From contig JAHBSW010000028.1 of NCBI GenBank assembly GCA_019638935.1, positions 1 through 32,672 of the forward strand: a stretch of 32,672 bases of DNA. The letters run 5' to 3'. Below, piece after piece: positions 6,352-10,440 of the stretch; within the stretch, counting starts at the first letter, position 1; every line of letters begins with the position of its first letter. The notes below the pieces were generated by a model that worked only from the letters and a program-made list of their open reading frames with translations, was not told the DNA's origin and searched no databases. Source of the stretch: Cryobacterium sp. (lineage in GTDB: Bacteria; Actinomycetota; Actinomycetes; Actinomycetales; Microbacteriaceae). The position numbers and the translations under genes were made by a program.

Positions 6352-6909
6352 TCAGGTGTCGTCTCGGCGCCGGCGAGACACCAGCCAGTGCGTGAGCTGG
6401 TATCCGGCGTACAAGAACAGTCCCGTCGCGAAAACGGGGATGGCCCAGGCGCGAACCTCCGCGCTGACGAAATTGTTGACGTACCCGATCCACGGAATCG
6501 CGTACCACACCTTGCCTCGGATCTGAACCGGCTGAACGGCGGCAGCATCCGGGCTCGCGTTGTTATCGCCCTTGGTCAGGAACCGGCGGTCGCCGTCGCT
6601 GCTGCTGATGACCGAGACCACGCGGTGCGTGACGACCTCGGGCTTTCCCGACGCGATCTGGTAGGTGATGGCGTCACCGATGCGAATGTCGGCCTCGTCG
6701 ATCGGCTTGACGATGACGAGAGTACCGGGCGGATAGGTCGGCTCCATGGAGCTCGTCAGCACGGTCATCGGCGTGGAACCGGTGACCGCGGGCACGACGA
6801 TCGCAAGCGCACCCAGCAGGGCGACGAGACCGAGCAGGCCGATGCTGAGTCCGACGCCGAGGTAGTACAGCACACCGTGCTCTCTGATGCGGGTGCGGCG
6901 GCCGCTCAT
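6352..6909 (-). CDS. sipW: Signal peptidase I, SipW/ER (Ser-His) type
   Basis: A 185-aa membrane peptidase. TM1 spans about residues 17-42 and a C-terminal TM about 158-178. The catalytic region shows Ser54 in T-S-S-M-E-P-T, His95 in V-V-T-H-R-V-V (in place of the bacterial Lys) and Asp115 in T-K-G-D-N-N, the Ser/His arrangement of SipW and archaeal/ER signal peptidases. SipW-type enzymes process proteins with a dedicated signal-peptide class, such as TasA. Here it is the last gene of an operon whose first three genes encode proteins with that signal class. ATG 6909 overlaps the preceding stop (ATGA), which fixes the start; the longer open frame upstream is not used. Confidence 0.93.
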   Translation of the reverse strand: MSGRRTRIREHGVLYYLGVGLSIGLLGLVALLGALAIVVPAVTGSTPMTVLTSSMEPTYPPGTLVIVKPIDEADIRIGDAITYQIASGKPEVVTHRVVSVISSSDGDRRFLTKGDNNASPDAAAVQPVQIRGKVWYAIPWIGYVNNFVSAEVRAWAIPVFATGLFLYAGYQLTHWLVSRRRRDDT

Positions 6910-7649
6910 GCAAGATCCTCCTGATACTGCTGCTCTGCCAGTTCGCGCTCGTCGCGTCGTCGCAACCAGCCTGCCGCGACCCAGTGCATCCCAGCGCCGA
7001 GTGCGAGAGCGGTGAGCAGGATCACGAGAAGGTACTCCTCGTAGAGCTGCCACGTATTGGGAATGACGCCGAGACCCACGATGGTCGCGATGCGGTTGTC
7101 GAACGGAGTGAGCTCGATCATCGTGTCAGGGGAGCCGCAGTCGGTCGGTGGGACTTGGCCGAGTCCGGTGCCGCTGAGCTCGATACCCAGCCGAAACTGC
7201 GCCGTCGCGCCCTGCGCCTGCGTACCGCTCAGGTCGGCGAGCGCGAGCGTCGTAACCACGGGCACCGACTCGCCTTCGCCCAGTGCTCCTTCGAAGAGAA
7301 CTCGACACGGGGTGGCCGTGCTCACAGCCGCCGCGGGCCCAGCCACGCCATCGACCGCGAGGGCGATGCTCAGGGCATCGGCGAACACGGGGTTCGTCGA
7401 CGTGACGTCCTGCAGCACGATGCGCAAGAGGCCCGGCTCGTCTCCCGTGTTGCGTACGGAGAATTCGGCGCTCGCGCTCGACCGGGGCACGAGCGCCACA
7501 CTGTCGAAGAGCGGCGCGCTGAGGTCCGAACCCCACGTCGTGCCGTCAGAGCTCACGGCGATCTCGCCCGCGGCGAAGGCGGGAGTCGCCCCGGGAACGG
7601 CCAGCATCAATCCGAGAACGAGCGCGGAGATTCCAGGTACTTTCCTCAT
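6906..7649 (-). CDS. Secreted, C-terminally membrane-anchored protein of SipW cluster
   Basis: A 247-aa protein with a conventional Sec signal peptide (M-R-K, hydrophobic core, A-F-A before A-G-E, cleavage near residue 26). An extracellular beta-rich domain follows with F-S-V-R-N-T-G-D-E-P, the conserved-turn pattern seen in TasA/CalY-like proteins. A single TM helix near 213-233 is followed by a basic, glutamate-rich cytoplasmic tail. It lacks the A-L-W signature of the three upstream exported proteins, so a standard signal peptidase probably processes it. ATG 7649 overlaps the preceding stop by ATGA. It may anchor or scaffold the other exported proteins; that role is inferred from position only. 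Confidence 0.8.
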   Translation of the reverse strand: MRKVPGISALVLGLMLAVPGATPAFAAGEIAVSSDGTTWGSDLSAPLFDSVALVPRSSASAEFSVRNTGDEPGLLRIVLQDVTSTNPVFADALSIALAVDGVAGPAAAVSTATPCRVLFEGALGEGESVPVVTTLALADLSGTQAQGATAQFRLGIELSGTGLGQVPPTDCGSPDTMIELTPFDNRIATIVGLGVIPNTWQLYEEYLLVILLTALALGAGMHWVAAGWLRRRDERELAEQQYQEDLA

Positions 7650-9019
7650 GAGCAACCAAGGTTGTATCCGCTGCCCGCCGGGGTGATTCGAACGAATCCG
7701 TTAGCGGCTTCGGTCCAGATTCCGCCGTGAACGGATTGCTCAACACGGATCGGAAGCAAGCCCGTGCCATAGACCGCGGGGTTGAGGTGCCCGGAACCCG
7801 TGTAGAACTGCGCATGAGTCCAGTGACCGTTCAGGTGATCCATTGCGAAGATGTCGTTGACGTAGACCTTGTACACCGTCACATGCTGGTATCCCGCCAA
7901 GGGGGTCCAGCTGAAGTCGATGTAGTTCGTTCCGTTTCCCGTGCACTGCAGGATTTCTATCGGCGGCGTCGGGTCAGCGACGATGGCGATGGCGAAACCC
8001 TGCTTGACGTCGGCGTCGTTGCACGCGGTGAGCTGGATCTTCCACGAACTGGCCTGGCTATGCCAGGCGTTGGAAACGGCCGCGCAGGCGTTGTACTGCG
8101 GGCTCTTGATGCGGTAGGTGCCGTCAGGCCGCTGCGAGATTTCCCAGGATTGCGCGGGGCCGGGGTTGTCGACGGCGTGCACGACGTCGCCGTTCGACGA
8201 CGTGCTGGCCCAGAACTGGTCAGGCTGATTGGGCAGGTTCCAGGCGAGTTCTATCCGATAGAGACCTCCCGCCAGTGGGTGAATCAGCCATTCCGTCAGC
8301 TGAGCATGACCACAGCTGAAGTTGTAGACCAGAATTGCGTCGTTCCACTGACGACCGACGCACAGGTCGCGGTTGGAGATGCTGTACCGCGCCCCGGTTT
8401 CGCTGAACGGTGACGGAGCCGATACATTCTGCTGGAATGTTGCCGCAGAGGTCGTGTCGTTCCAGCCCGACTGCACGGACGCGACCGTCGAACTCACGAT
8501 CGAGCCCGTGAGGGCCTTGCCGCCGTGAGTTGCCACCGTCGCCATGACGGTCTGCACGCACACGGTCACGCTCGAGCCGGCGGCCAAGGCTGCGGGCGCG
8601 CTCGAGAGTGTGACGGCCGAGTTCAGCGTTCCCGTCACGGGAGACACGAGCGTGGTGCTCGGAGTGCACGCGGCGGCGTTGGCGACGACGGCGAGCCGGG
8701 CGGTGACGTGCTGACGAAGATCGGAGGCGGATGTCGCGCTCACCGCCACCGAGTACGCCGCCTCGCGATTGCCCGTGTTGGTCACGACCACGGCCTGCGC
8801 CGCCGCGAGGGTGCTCGCGGTGTAGGCGTGGTCGAGGCCACCGCCCACGGACTGCGAGACTCCCACCGTCGCGGCATCTGCCGTGAACGTGTCGAGACTC
8901 ACCTGAGTCGACCACAGCGCGGTGGCCGTGCCCGTACCGATGAGGCTCAGGAACACGACGGCACCAGCAAGAAGCCCCCGGCGGAGCGGGGGGCGAAGGC
9001 TCGTTCGTGACTGGCTCAT
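7646..9019 (-). CDS. SipW-class exported protein with ricin-type lectin region
   Basis: A 457-aa protein. The N-terminal signal peptide ends in G-T-A-T-A-L-W-S (residues 30-37), the SipW-dependent class. Residues about 40-210 form a Ser/Thr/Ala/Val-rich beta domain with V-V-V-T-N-T-G-N-R-E-A-A-Y-S-V, as in TasA-like subunits. About 220-355 resembles a ricin B-type lectin region (repeated W-containing segments, Q-P-D-Q-F-W, Q-S-W-E-I-S, N-A-C-A-A-V). About 360-457 looks like a further beta-sandwich. The stop of the previous gene overlaps this ATG (TGATG), supporting 9019 rather than the longer open frame. The lectin assignment rests on pattern, not on an alignment. It could bind glycans of the cell wall or environment. 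Confidence 0.78.
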   Translation of the reverse strand: MSQSRTSLRPPLRRGLLAGAVVFLSLIGTGTATALWSTQVSLDTFTADAATVGVSQSVGGGLDHAYTASTLAAAQAVVVTNTGNREAAYSVAVSATSASDLRQHVTARLAVVANAAACTPSTTLVSPVTGTLNSAVTLSSAPAALAAGSSVTVCVQTVMATVATHGGKALTGSIVSSTVASVQSGWNDTTSAATFQQNVSAPSPFSETGARYSISNRDLCVGRQWNDAILVYNFSCGHAQLTEWLIHPLAGGLYRIELAWNLPNQPDQFWASTSSNGDVVHAVDNPGPAQSWEISQRPDGTYRIKSPQYNACAAVSNAWHSQASSWKIQLTACNDADVKQGFAIAIVADPTPPIEILQCTGNGTNYIDFSWTPLAGYQHVTVYKVYVNDIFAMDHLNGHWTHAQFYTGSGHLNPAVYGTGLLPIRVEQSVHGGIWTEAANGFVRITPAGSGYNLGCS

Positions 9020-9588
9020 CAGGGTTCCTGACCGGCCGTGAGCGTCAGGGAGAAGTCGGCGTCGTCGCCCGGCAGTGCGGTGGCCGACAGCGTGACGTCC
9101 ACGCACAGGTGCGACACCTCGCCCGGTGCCATGATGCCGAGACCCACCGTCGACCCGAGAGCGTCAGCACCCGGGATCGGCGAACTGCACGCATCGGCCT
9201 CGCCGACCAACTCGAGCCGCAGCTCGAACGAGCCTGGATCACCGCTGGTCTGAGCCGACAGCGCCGACAGGTCAATCGGGATGTTGCCGGTGTTCGTTAC
9301 CACCACGAACTGAACATGGCGCTCGCCCGGCAGCAGCTTCGACCAGTGCGTCGACTCGAGAACACCCGACAACTCGACATCGAGCACGCCGGAGGTGACA
9401 ACCGGCCCGTCAATCGCCGTGTCGTCATTCCAGAGCGCGTACGTTCCCCCGGCGCTCAGTACAGCGGCGAAGATCCCCACCGTGACAGCACACAGGGAGG
9501 TGAACACGCCCCTCAGGCTCACGCGGCGCCGTGGCGCGCGGTGGGCGGGCTGGCGCTGAGGGGCGCCAACCGAAAGGTTTCTGGGCAT
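9019..9588 (-). CDS. TasA-like SipW-dependent exported protein
   Basis: A 189-aa protein. A basic N-terminus (residues 1-27) leads into a hydrophobic core and the G-T-Y-A-L-W-N-D motif at 48-55, typical of SipW-cognate signal peptides. The mature part has V-V-V-T-N-T-G-N-I-P-I-D-L-S, a conserved turn found in TasA/CalY-type subunits, and is predicted to be mainly beta-strand. A strong GGGGAGGTG ribosome site precedes ATG 9588. Two cysteines in the mature region (about 133 and 160) could form a disulfide. It is likely a minor subunit or partner of the 172-aa protein encoded 66 bp upstream. Confidence 0.82.
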   Translation of the reverse strand: MPRNLSVGAPQRQPAHRAPRRRVSLRGVFTSLCAVTVGIFAAVLSAGGTYALWNDDTAIDGPVVTSGVLDVELSGVLESTHWSKLLPGERHVQFVVVTNTGNIPIDLSALSAQTSGDPGSFELRLELVGEADACSSPIPGADALGSTVGLGIMAPGEVSHLCVDVTLSATALPGDDADFSLTLTAGQEP

Positions 9589-9654
9589 GATTCACCTCCC
9601 CGGGTGCTGTTCGGGCCAGACCAGTGGGTGGTTTCGAACTAGGAGATGACTGCT

Positions 9655-10173
9655 TTACTGCTGCTGCAGCACGAAGCTGACGGCGTTGAGGTTCACCGTC
9701 TGGTCCTGACCTTCCAGGTTCTGGACGCTGTTCGCAGGGAACGTGACCGTCACCGTGACGTCGAGCACTGCAGCATCGGCAGCCTCCGTCACCGTGTACG
9801 TGCCATTGCCGTTGTCCGTCACCCCGGCGACGGGCAGGCCGTTCACGGTGAACGTGACCTCAAGCGCGCTCGCGAACTCAGTGTTGCCAATACCGACGAG
9901 GCCCGAGTCGTCGACCGACAGGATCGCCGAAAGGTTGTCGCCGGTCGCCCCGATCGTCAGAGTTCCGTCGTACGTGGCAACGTCACCCGGAACCCACAGG
10001 TCCCACTCGTTGTCCCACGTGCCGCTGGAACCGTCGATGGTCAAAGTACCGGACGTGATATCGCCGGCCGTGATGCTGGCCGAGTCGTTCCAGAGCGCAA
10101 GAGTGCCGGCGCCGCCAAGAAGGAGGGCGATACCGGCGGCACCAGCGATGCTGGCCTTGGTGAGCTTGTTCAT
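9655..10173 (-). CDS. TasA-like/alternate signal-mediated exported protein, first gene of SipW operon
   Basis: A 172-aa protein with a short N-terminus (M-N-K-L-T-K), a hydrophobic core and G-T-L-A-L-W-N-D at residues 23-30, the SipW-class processing signature. The mature protein is acidic, glycine/threonine-rich and free of cysteine, with repeated V-T-V-T-F and G-T-Y-T-V strand patterns, compatible with a fibre- or surface-forming TasA/camelysin-like subunit. AGAGGA (10182-10187) lies 8 nt before ATG 10173. It heads the five-gene cluster behind a long structured leader and is probably the most abundant product. Fibre formation is an inference from the family. Confidence 0.85.
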   Translation of the reverse strand: MNKLTKASIAGAAGIALLLGGAGTLALWNDSASITAGDITSGTLTIDGSSGTWDNEWDLWVPGDVATYDGTLTIGATGDNLSAILSVDDSGLVGIGNTEFASALEVTFTVNGLPVAGVTDNGNGTYTVTEAADAAVLDVTVTVTFPANSVQNLEGQDQTVNLNAVSFVLQQQ

Positions 10174-10220
10174 GGTGTGTGTCCTCTACAGGTCTGGACC
10201 CGATACACACACGAGACGGA

Positions 10221-10338
10221 GAGTGCGCCAAGCGCACTCGCCAAATCGCCCGCATTCGGGTCGCGGGTATTCATTGAAGATCGGCCTAGGGTTGCCGATC
10301 TTCGGATTCGACCTTGTTCGCTGCCTAGGGTTGCAGCG
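10221..10338 (-). promoter_or_regulatory. Structured leader: two hairpins with identical 8-nt loop plus a third hairpin
   Basis: In transcript order on the minus strand: CGCTGC/GCAGCG (10338-10333 and 10324-10319) closes the loop AACCCTAG. Then GAAGATCGGC/GCCGATCTTC (10303-10294 and 10285-10276) closes the same loop AACCCTAG. Then GAGTGCGC/GCGCACTC (10239-10232 and 10228-10221) has a 3-nt loop. The two first stems share only the loop-closing GC pairs, so the 12-bp common core GCCTAGGGTTGC (10284-10295 and 10323-10334) is 39 bp apart. All three hairpins lie upstream of the first SipW-cluster gene, and no T-run follows them. Confidence 0.7.
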
Positions 10339-10387: not shown

Positions 10388-10440
10388 TAGGGCGTGTCTC
10401 CACCCAAAACGGGGGTGAACAATCGGAACGCTTTCGTCAG

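Follow-up and report, generated by a model that had tools for sequence, protein, structure and literature searches.

The DNA analyzed in this study (here called the window) is a stretch of 32,672 nucleotides from an assembly deposited as Cryobacterium sp. (GCA_019638935.1, contig JAHBSW010000028.1), and all of the window features described here are read from its minus strand. They center on an operon whose first gene (9655-10173) encodes a TasA-like, SipW-exported protein (TIGR04089, E 1.4e-33, above the cut-off; TIGR04088, E 2.8e-8) and whose second gene (9019-9588) encodes a protein with a SipW-dependent signal peptide (TIGR04088, E 5.1e-5). A SipW-like signal peptidase I gene (6352-6924) lies in the same gene cluster (TIGR02228, E 1.7e-27, above the cut-off; NF046067 SipW, 76.8 bits, below the cut-off). 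By eye, the first operon gene has a Shine-Dalgarno-like AGAGGA at 10182-10187.

Upstream of the operon are hairpins H1 (10319-10338; CGCTGC-AACCCTAG-GCAGCG, a perfect 6-bp stem with its loop at 10325-10332) and H2 (10276-10303; GAAGATCGGC-AACCCTAG-GCCGATCTTC, a perfect 10-bp stem with its loop at 10286-10293), which the first-pass annotation had described as two hairpins with different stems and the same loop. This description is confirmed: the loops are identical, AACCCTAG recurs in a 39-bp register, and a 15-nt linker joins the two hairpins, which are the sole sites of the 12-mer GCAACCCTAGGC in the 2.41-Mb assembly (94.86% complete). The further perfect hairpin that had been reported at 10221-10239 also exists; it has an 8-bp stem and a 3-nt loop that is unrelated to AACCCTAG and has no complementarity to the loops of the small RNA (sRNA) introduced below. 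Between it and H2 lies hairpin H3 (10249-10267; CCCGCG-ACCCGAA-TGCGGG, with ACCCGAA at 10255-10261), which was absent from the earlier annotation. Closer to the gene, the sequence GGGTCC (10196-10201) could base-pair either with GACCC in the H3 loop or, partly, with the Shine-Dalgarno region, and GACCTGTAGAGG (10183-10194) overlaps the Shine-Dalgarno sequence. On the other side of the hairpins, CACCCCCGTTTTGGGTGG (10400-10417), which reads ACCC..GGGTGGGGTACAAAC in homologous leaders, adjoins what is, by eye, a likely promoter; a sigma-70 promoter scan found none at the leader locus or at the sRNA locus.

The 207-nt leader folds far more stably than its dinucleotide shuffles (z = -4.49; none of 200 shuffles equaled it). 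When the whole leader is folded, the probability of lying in a hairpin loop is 1.00 for the H1 loop and 0.99 for the H2 loop. For the H3 loop it is 0.01, and in the minimum-energy fold computed without constraints GACCCGA is paired instead with UCGGGUC at 10197-10203; across six leaders of the same genus (Terrimesophilobacter), the H3 loop has a value of at most 0.04. The GGGTCC sequence, which is invariant in these six leaders, is a possible switch between the H3 loop and the Shine-Dalgarno region. Rfam gave no matches to the window at gathering score and none to the leader up to E 1, mini-ykkC included.

A TasA-like match is present in six of eight genomes of the genus, including T. mesophilus DSM 19267 (G153). 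H3 is kept in all six as CCCGCGACCCGAA-W-GCGGG, within surrounding DNA that has diverged; a search of 150 family genomes for the H3 pattern found it in only two, both of the same genus. The earlier expectation that the exact 8-nt loop of H1 and H2 would be kept in homologous leaders fails, a candidate tandem AACCCTAG being found in only 1 other of 150 family genomes (G048). Instead, one leader of the genus (L014) carries CGAGACGG-TTACCCT-CCGTCTCG, and the T. mesophilus leader (L007) carries, by eye, GCTGG-TTTACCCG-CCAGC; both loops fit loop A of the sRNA in another register. In a further leader (L006), ACCCGAA forms the loop of the very hairpin that holds the Shine-Dalgarno sequence (GTCCTG-ACCCGAA-CAGGAC).

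Scanning GTDB contigs with protein profiles yielded 79 loci, mostly from Microbacteriaceae; with four same-genus leaders added and one locus (L068, no start codon) removed, there were 82 leaders of up to 300 nt, of which 71 remained after dereplication by shared 10-mers. With no motif set in advance, ACCCGAA was the commonest hairpin-loop 7-mer in these 71 leaders (12 copies in 10 leaders), and it also ranked first overall by copies (28 copies in 25 leaders; GGGGGAC likewise occurred in 25 leaders, in 26 copies). The motif is strongly biased to the sense strand, with 28 sense versus 2 antisense copies overall and 12 versus 0 in hairpin loops, against shuffle means of 2.2 and 0.055, respectively. 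The stems around this fixed loop vary by genus: GGCTC/GAGCC, present twice in Microbacterium marinilacus (L098), CAAGACA/TGTCTTG in Salinibacterium, and CGCGGG/CCCGCG in Frigoribacterium. Unrelated stems, sense bias and occurrence in 25/71 leaders support the earlier proposal of selection on RNA hairpins with a recognized loop. Thirty-seven of the 71 leaders contain no ACCCGA within 300 nt, and whole-leader folding places only 19 of 54 ACCC[GT]A sites in a hairpin loop with a probability of at least 0.5.

The same pattern was seen in a later leader set, in which 26 loci were tried and 17, none used before, were kept as new. Seven of these contain ACCCGAA and none contains TTCGGGT; ACCCGA has 26 sense sites, 6 of them in hairpins (e.g., ACGATG-ACCCGA-CATCGT, TCAATG-AACCCGA-CATTGA, and GGGCC-ACCCGAA-GGCCC), versus 0 antisense sites. 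ACCCGAA reaches a density of 1.23 per kb in leaders and of 0.78 in the 150-nt interval that follows the tasA open reading frame (ORF), compared with 0.00 to 0.10 per kb in other stretches and strands of the same loci; the background in 400 kb of a sister genome (G153) is 0.087 per kb of strand, or 0.0025 for hairpinned copies. Of 706 ORFs of at least 200 amino acids in that 400 kb (spurious ones included), 9 are preceded by ACCCGAA at a distance of up to 120 nt. The 150-nt interval downstream of tasA, ahead of a next gene, contains 8 sense copies in 5/68 loci and no antisense copies; in the window, CCCGAA at 9610-9615, just 5' of the GGGGAGG Shine-Dalgarno sequence of the second gene, is a candidate extra site for sRNA loop B. 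Several sites adjoin a ribosome-binding site: they lie between the Shine-Dalgarno sequence and the ATG in L111 and L243, immediately 5' of the GGGAGG that precedes a second ATG in L040, and between or beside the Shine-Dalgarno sequence and the start codon in L237. A strong palindrome, GGGACAGACNNNTCTGTCTGTCCC, was seen by eye in the promoter regions of three Cryobacterium leaders (L100, L075, and L110).

A covariance search seeded with the leader hairpins led to an unannotated small-RNA gene, and it was the overlooked but conserved H3 that led to the sRNA explanation. A model of the single hairpin (R1), with which H3 scores 26.6 bits, was run on the eight genus genomes; among the matches listed, it found, besides the tasA leaders, one intergenic locus in seven of them, with a long stem around ACCCGAA. 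In the eighth, the window's own genome, the locus was found by blastn and also by a second model, R2 (G000:C13:35770-35886, minus strand, 117 nt), so that the total is 8/8. At E ≤ 5, R1 gave 97 matches in the eight genomes, at least 30 of them with a locus, the best R1 score being shared by L117. Matches outside the tasA leaders and the sRNA locus (L117, L126, L130 to L132, L135 to L137, and L139 to L146) were judged by eye to be coding or terminator-like and were set aside; two of them (L132:1501-1519 in G152 and L136:1501-1519 in G154) are long ACCCGAA-loop hairpins that are possible docking sites or terminators.

Read on the strand opposite to ACCCGAA, the intergenic locus encodes a predicted compact RNA whose loops are UUCGGGU and CUAGGGUAAG; a GC-rich, terminator-like hairpin comes after it. 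The predicted layout is a 5' hairpin, a loop-A hairpin (ACUAGGGUAAGC), a long loop-B hairpin (UUCGGGU), and the GC-rich hairpin; the latter was seen by eye at the 3' end, where a terminator scan found none by the scanner's rule. At E ≤ 0.01, R2 (40 pairs) had matches in 190 of the 299 family genomes that were sampled, representing 54 of 85 genera, and at E ≤ 0.1 in 41 of the 48 searched genomes bearing tasA loci, which derive from 50 of the 79 loci. In a sample of 198 genomes of the order, all seven matches fell within Microbacteriaceae. When the final five of the 63 aligned rows (weak matches to the opposite strand) are left out of the pair and loop counts, both sides change in 30 of the 40 pairs and 93.4% of cells pair (56 distinct rows); with these five rows included, the number is 34/40, with a covariation score of 0.337 versus 0.141 for shuffled alignments and at most 0.091 for slid versions. 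Loop B, AUUCGGGUU, is invariant in 56/56 distinct rows, and any position of the loop A core varies in at most 2 of them. On the UUCGGGU strand, to whose model the alignment was fitted, G.U pairs outnumber A.C pairs 107 to 23, an excess that points to this strand. No Rfam family matched 20 sRNA loci at gathering score, and up to E 0.5 the seven genus loci gave only distant, sub-gathering matches (CsrC, E 0.05 and 0.098; mgtE, E 0.41). A search for a divergent sRNA in genomes without an R2 match was negative: the two-loop pattern was present in two positive controls and in 0/7 others. On this comparative evidence, the locus is a putative, unannotated and conserved sRNA gene of Microbacteriaceae with good structural support.

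The loops of this putative sRNA match those of the leader. Loop A (CUAGGGU) is the exact 7-nt complement of ACCCUAG in the H1 and H2 loops, and loop B (UUCGGGU) is that of ACCCGAA in the H3 loop. Loop A played no part in locating the sRNA gene, yet it complements H1 and H2 exactly. ACCCTAG occurs only three times, on both strands together, in the 400-kb sample of G153 (approximately 0.004 per kb); given this rarity, a chance complement in a 117-nt RNA would be unlikely, at about 4 in 10,000. After opening costs, the three predicted loop contacts in the window amount to -8.8, -8.8, and -8.7 kcal/mol. The energy of a single site is unexceptional, since 7 of 216 window tiles equal or beat the leader, one being the leader itself; what distinguishes the leader is that it combines three predicted sites of this kind, of which two fall in hairpin loops that are themselves strongly predicted. 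In addition, GACCTGTAGAGG at the Shine-Dalgarno sequence is a 12-nt perfect complement of the 5' hairpin of the genome's own sRNA (CCTCTACAGGTC), which over these positions (10183-10194) is the best of 36 for this leader (-33.3 versus a mean of -19.5). The idea that the sRNA 5' hairpin generally pairs at the ribosome site was rejected (permutation P of 0.38, 36 pairs), and the match is kept as a peculiarity of this genome.

Cognate pairs (36 for the ribosome-site test and 35 for a scan of every sRNA position against the leader of the same genome) were drawn from 30 of the 41 R2-positive genomes, namely those whose sRNA locus was retrieved, together with the genus. The largest excess in the scan was at loop B, whose complement ACCCGAA occurred in 12 leaders and never in antisense (shuffle mean 1.1, maximum 4). 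With k = 6, two loop-B windows were followed by loop A (CTTACC in 7, antisense 1; shuffle mean 1.7, maximum 5), and at k = 7, a 5' stretch, GGAACAC (4 versus 0.85), stood ahead of loop A, CTTACCC (3 versus 0.38). For the sRNA as a whole, the totals of sense and antisense matches were equal (400 versus 405 at k = 6), so the signal is local.

Leader motif and sRNA are also associated across genomes. Of 54 dereplicated leaders from genomes that bear the sRNA, 30 contain ACCCGA, compared with 2 of 13 leaders from family genomes in which no sRNA was detected (P of 0.013, uncorrected for phylogeny); the association of the full ACCCGAA was weaker (22/54 versus 2/13; P of 0.114, likewise uncorrected). 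An earlier count for ACCCGA (31/56 versus 3/17) took in near-duplicates, loci from outside the family, and genome G177. At the genome level, the sRNA and TIGR04089 occurred together in 101 genomes, the protein alone in 19, the sRNA alone in 89, and neither in 90 (Fisher's exact test, 5.7e-10, not corrected for phylogeny). Nineteen of the 120 TIGR04089 genomes thus have no detected sRNA; in Microbacterium marinilacus (L098), which has two ideal hairpins, the sRNA was found neither by model nor by pattern, and the motif is present in L023, whose genome gave no sRNA match. Conversely, the 89 sRNA-bearing genomes without a TasA-like match, which include G138 and G152 of the same genus, imply that there must be other targets.

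It has been demonstrated here that both partners are conserved in sequence and structure, that they are exactly complementary, that the motif is asymmetric between strands, and that the two are associated phylogenetically; from these findings we infer that the sRNA is transcribed and binds the leader. We consider it highly probable that the leader hairpins are kissing-loop targets of a trans-acting sRNA encoded elsewhere in the genome. The overall reading in the first-pass annotation is therefore borne out as regards RNA hairpins with a recognized loop, and falls short as regards conservation of the exact loop; that the recognizer is apparently a small RNA had not been foreseen. In the proposed mechanism, the 5' leader of the SipW/TasA-type operon would display C-rich loops (ACCCUAG twice and ACCCGAA once), the sRNA would display the G-rich loops A and B, and each of these would kiss leader loops over 7 bp. 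Two or three kissing contacts, joined in some species by local pairing close to the ribosome site, would hold the complex together, and binding would repress translation or destabilize the mRNA. Repression is the most likely outcome, in preference to activation, because sites recur near Shine-Dalgarno sequences (L111, L243, L040, and L006). In this way the sRNA probably controls the production of secreted, matrix-like proteins.

Activation nevertheless deserves consideration, since GGGTCC can alternate between the Shine-Dalgarno sequence and the H3 loop. Kissing of the upstream loops, which both versions of the model share, might free the Shine-Dalgarno sequence from a GTCC..GGAC hairpin or protect the mRNA; a hairpin can sequester the Shine-Dalgarno sequence in four same-genus leaders (L008, L006, L007, and L009), and the H3 loop is able to pair with GGGTC. 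However, the sites between or beside the Shine-Dalgarno sequence and the start codon (L111, L237, L243, and the second gene of L040), as well as the 12-nt sRNA match in the window, which covers the Shine-Dalgarno sequence, argue against an activating role, and we regard this sign of regulation as possible but rather unlikely. The same GGGTC pairing could also be envisioned as the whole of the mechanism, with the leader acting in cis like a riboswitch in which loop ACCC and downstream GGGTC gate the Shine-Dalgarno sequence and complementarity to the sRNA is secondary. The invariance of GGGTCC and H3 in the six same-genus leaders and the ACCC-GGGTC pairing of the minimum-energy fold would suit such a leader; however, leaders of other genera that have ACCCGAA or CCCGAA hairpins, L098 and L083 among them, lack by eye any GGGT from the hairpins up to the start codon, and the peak seen across the family follows the loops of the sRNA, which makes a purely cis-acting leader improbable.

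It is slightly harder still to credit an RNA-binding protein as the recognizer of the loops, with the conserved intergenic RNA as a same-loop decoy transcribed from the opposite strand in a Csr-like arrangement. That strand does read ACCCGAA and ACCCTAG, as in the leaders; however, the G.U excess over A.C (in an alignment fitted to a model of the TTCGGGT strand), a conserved promoter-like stretch before the RNA and a GC-rich hairpin after it all favor the TTCGGGT strand, and the other strand leaves, by eye, only about 20 nt between the terminator-like hairpin of the convergent gene and the RNA. Most remote of all is the DNA operator that the first-pass annotation had offered as its alternative, in which a transcription factor would bind two 12-bp half-sites, GCCTAGGGTTGC. 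The identical 12-mers 39 bp apart would fit this arrangement, but the 12-mer is absent elsewhere in the assembly, and the related motif lies between differing yet complementary stems; because ACCCGAA is biased to one strand (28 sense versus 2 antisense), an operator is disfavored.

The kissing-loop model has a precedent in Staphylococcus aureus RNAIII, which acts by the same kind of mechanism on rot mRNA and also on coa (PMC2837412). As in that class of regulator, there appears to be a separate RNA gene with conserved structure (190/299 genomes; 30/40 pairs) and complementarity to the hairpin loops of an mRNA leader, 7 nt at each of three window loops. RNAIII belongs to a different phylum, no RNAIII-like Rfam match was found at the sRNA loci, and the polarity differs: the loops of RNAIII are themselves C-rich (PMC2837412), whereas in the present case G-rich loops belong to the sRNA and C-rich loops to the target. 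The target here can, in addition, repeat its docking hairpin several times. ANTAR-target RNAs of actinobacteria are dual stem-loops in leaders with a linker of 2 to 25 nt and hexanucleotide loops having A1 and G4 (PMC8164766); by that description, H1 and H2 with their 15-nt linker are alike in arrangement, but their loops differ, the leader loops being 7 to 8 nt long (AACCCUAG and ACCCGAA), with no G at position 4 in H1 or H2.

Other two-loop and loop-binding systems are also known. The mini-ykkC motif consists of two small hairpins with like loops (ACGR) upstream of a gene; the two-hairpin arrangement is similar, but the loop here is AACCCUAG and Rfam gave no match. The 6C sRNA of actinobacteria likewise exposes two loops rich in one base; its loops are C-rich, whereas those described here are G-rich, and no Rfam match was found at the sRNA loci. 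CsrA/RsmE-type sites present GGA in hairpin loops, and this candidate was rejected, the H1 to H3 loops having no GGA on the sense strand. Assignment to the ANTAR targets, to mini-ykkC, to Csr sites, or to an existing Rfam family fails, and searches of open-licence full text turned up no paper that describes this RNA or reports that an sRNA controls SipW/TasA-like genes in Microbacteriaceae. This analysis proposes a conserved, structurally supported sRNA family together with its first target, and it opens the regulation of SipW/TasA-like surface proteins in Actinobacteria to direct testing. A leader that repeats its docking hairpin would also serve well for modeling how RNAs recognize each other multivalently.

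A broader role can also be envisioned, though we put it forward tentatively and at somewhat less than even probability: the sRNA may be a family-wide global regulator that combines multivalent kissing, perhaps co-control with its target through a shared TGT[AC]CCCC box, and a wider regulon. The docking hairpin, repeated in the leader and again before the second gene, would let two sRNA loops grip several mRNA loops, and the sRNA would set the production of SipW-exported matrix proteins; the wider regulon is suggested because 89 genomes keep the sRNA without a TasA-like match. TGT[AC]CCCC lies upstream of 33/38 sRNA loci. The box, as TGT[AC]CCCC or GGGG[GT]ACA, which in the window concerns the element at 10400-10417, was also observed in 25/71 tasA-type leaders versus 14/531 background tiles, and its presence at both places suggests one transcription factor for both.

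In 9 of 14 loci, including those of the window's own genome and T. mesophilus, the gene convergent with the sRNA gene encodes a related membrane protein that has no Pfam match (L127, L147, L153, L155, L163, L174, L194, L197, and L206); the other five are unresolved or different. In T. mesophilus (L127), this convergent gene follows an HATPase_c frame. The other flank is occupied by a carboxyltransferase-like gene in L127, L160, L174, and L194 and by a RIO-kinase gene in the window's own genome (G000). In L163, a terminator-like hairpin downstream of the sRNA has UUCGGGU in its loop and is a possible further copy of loop B.
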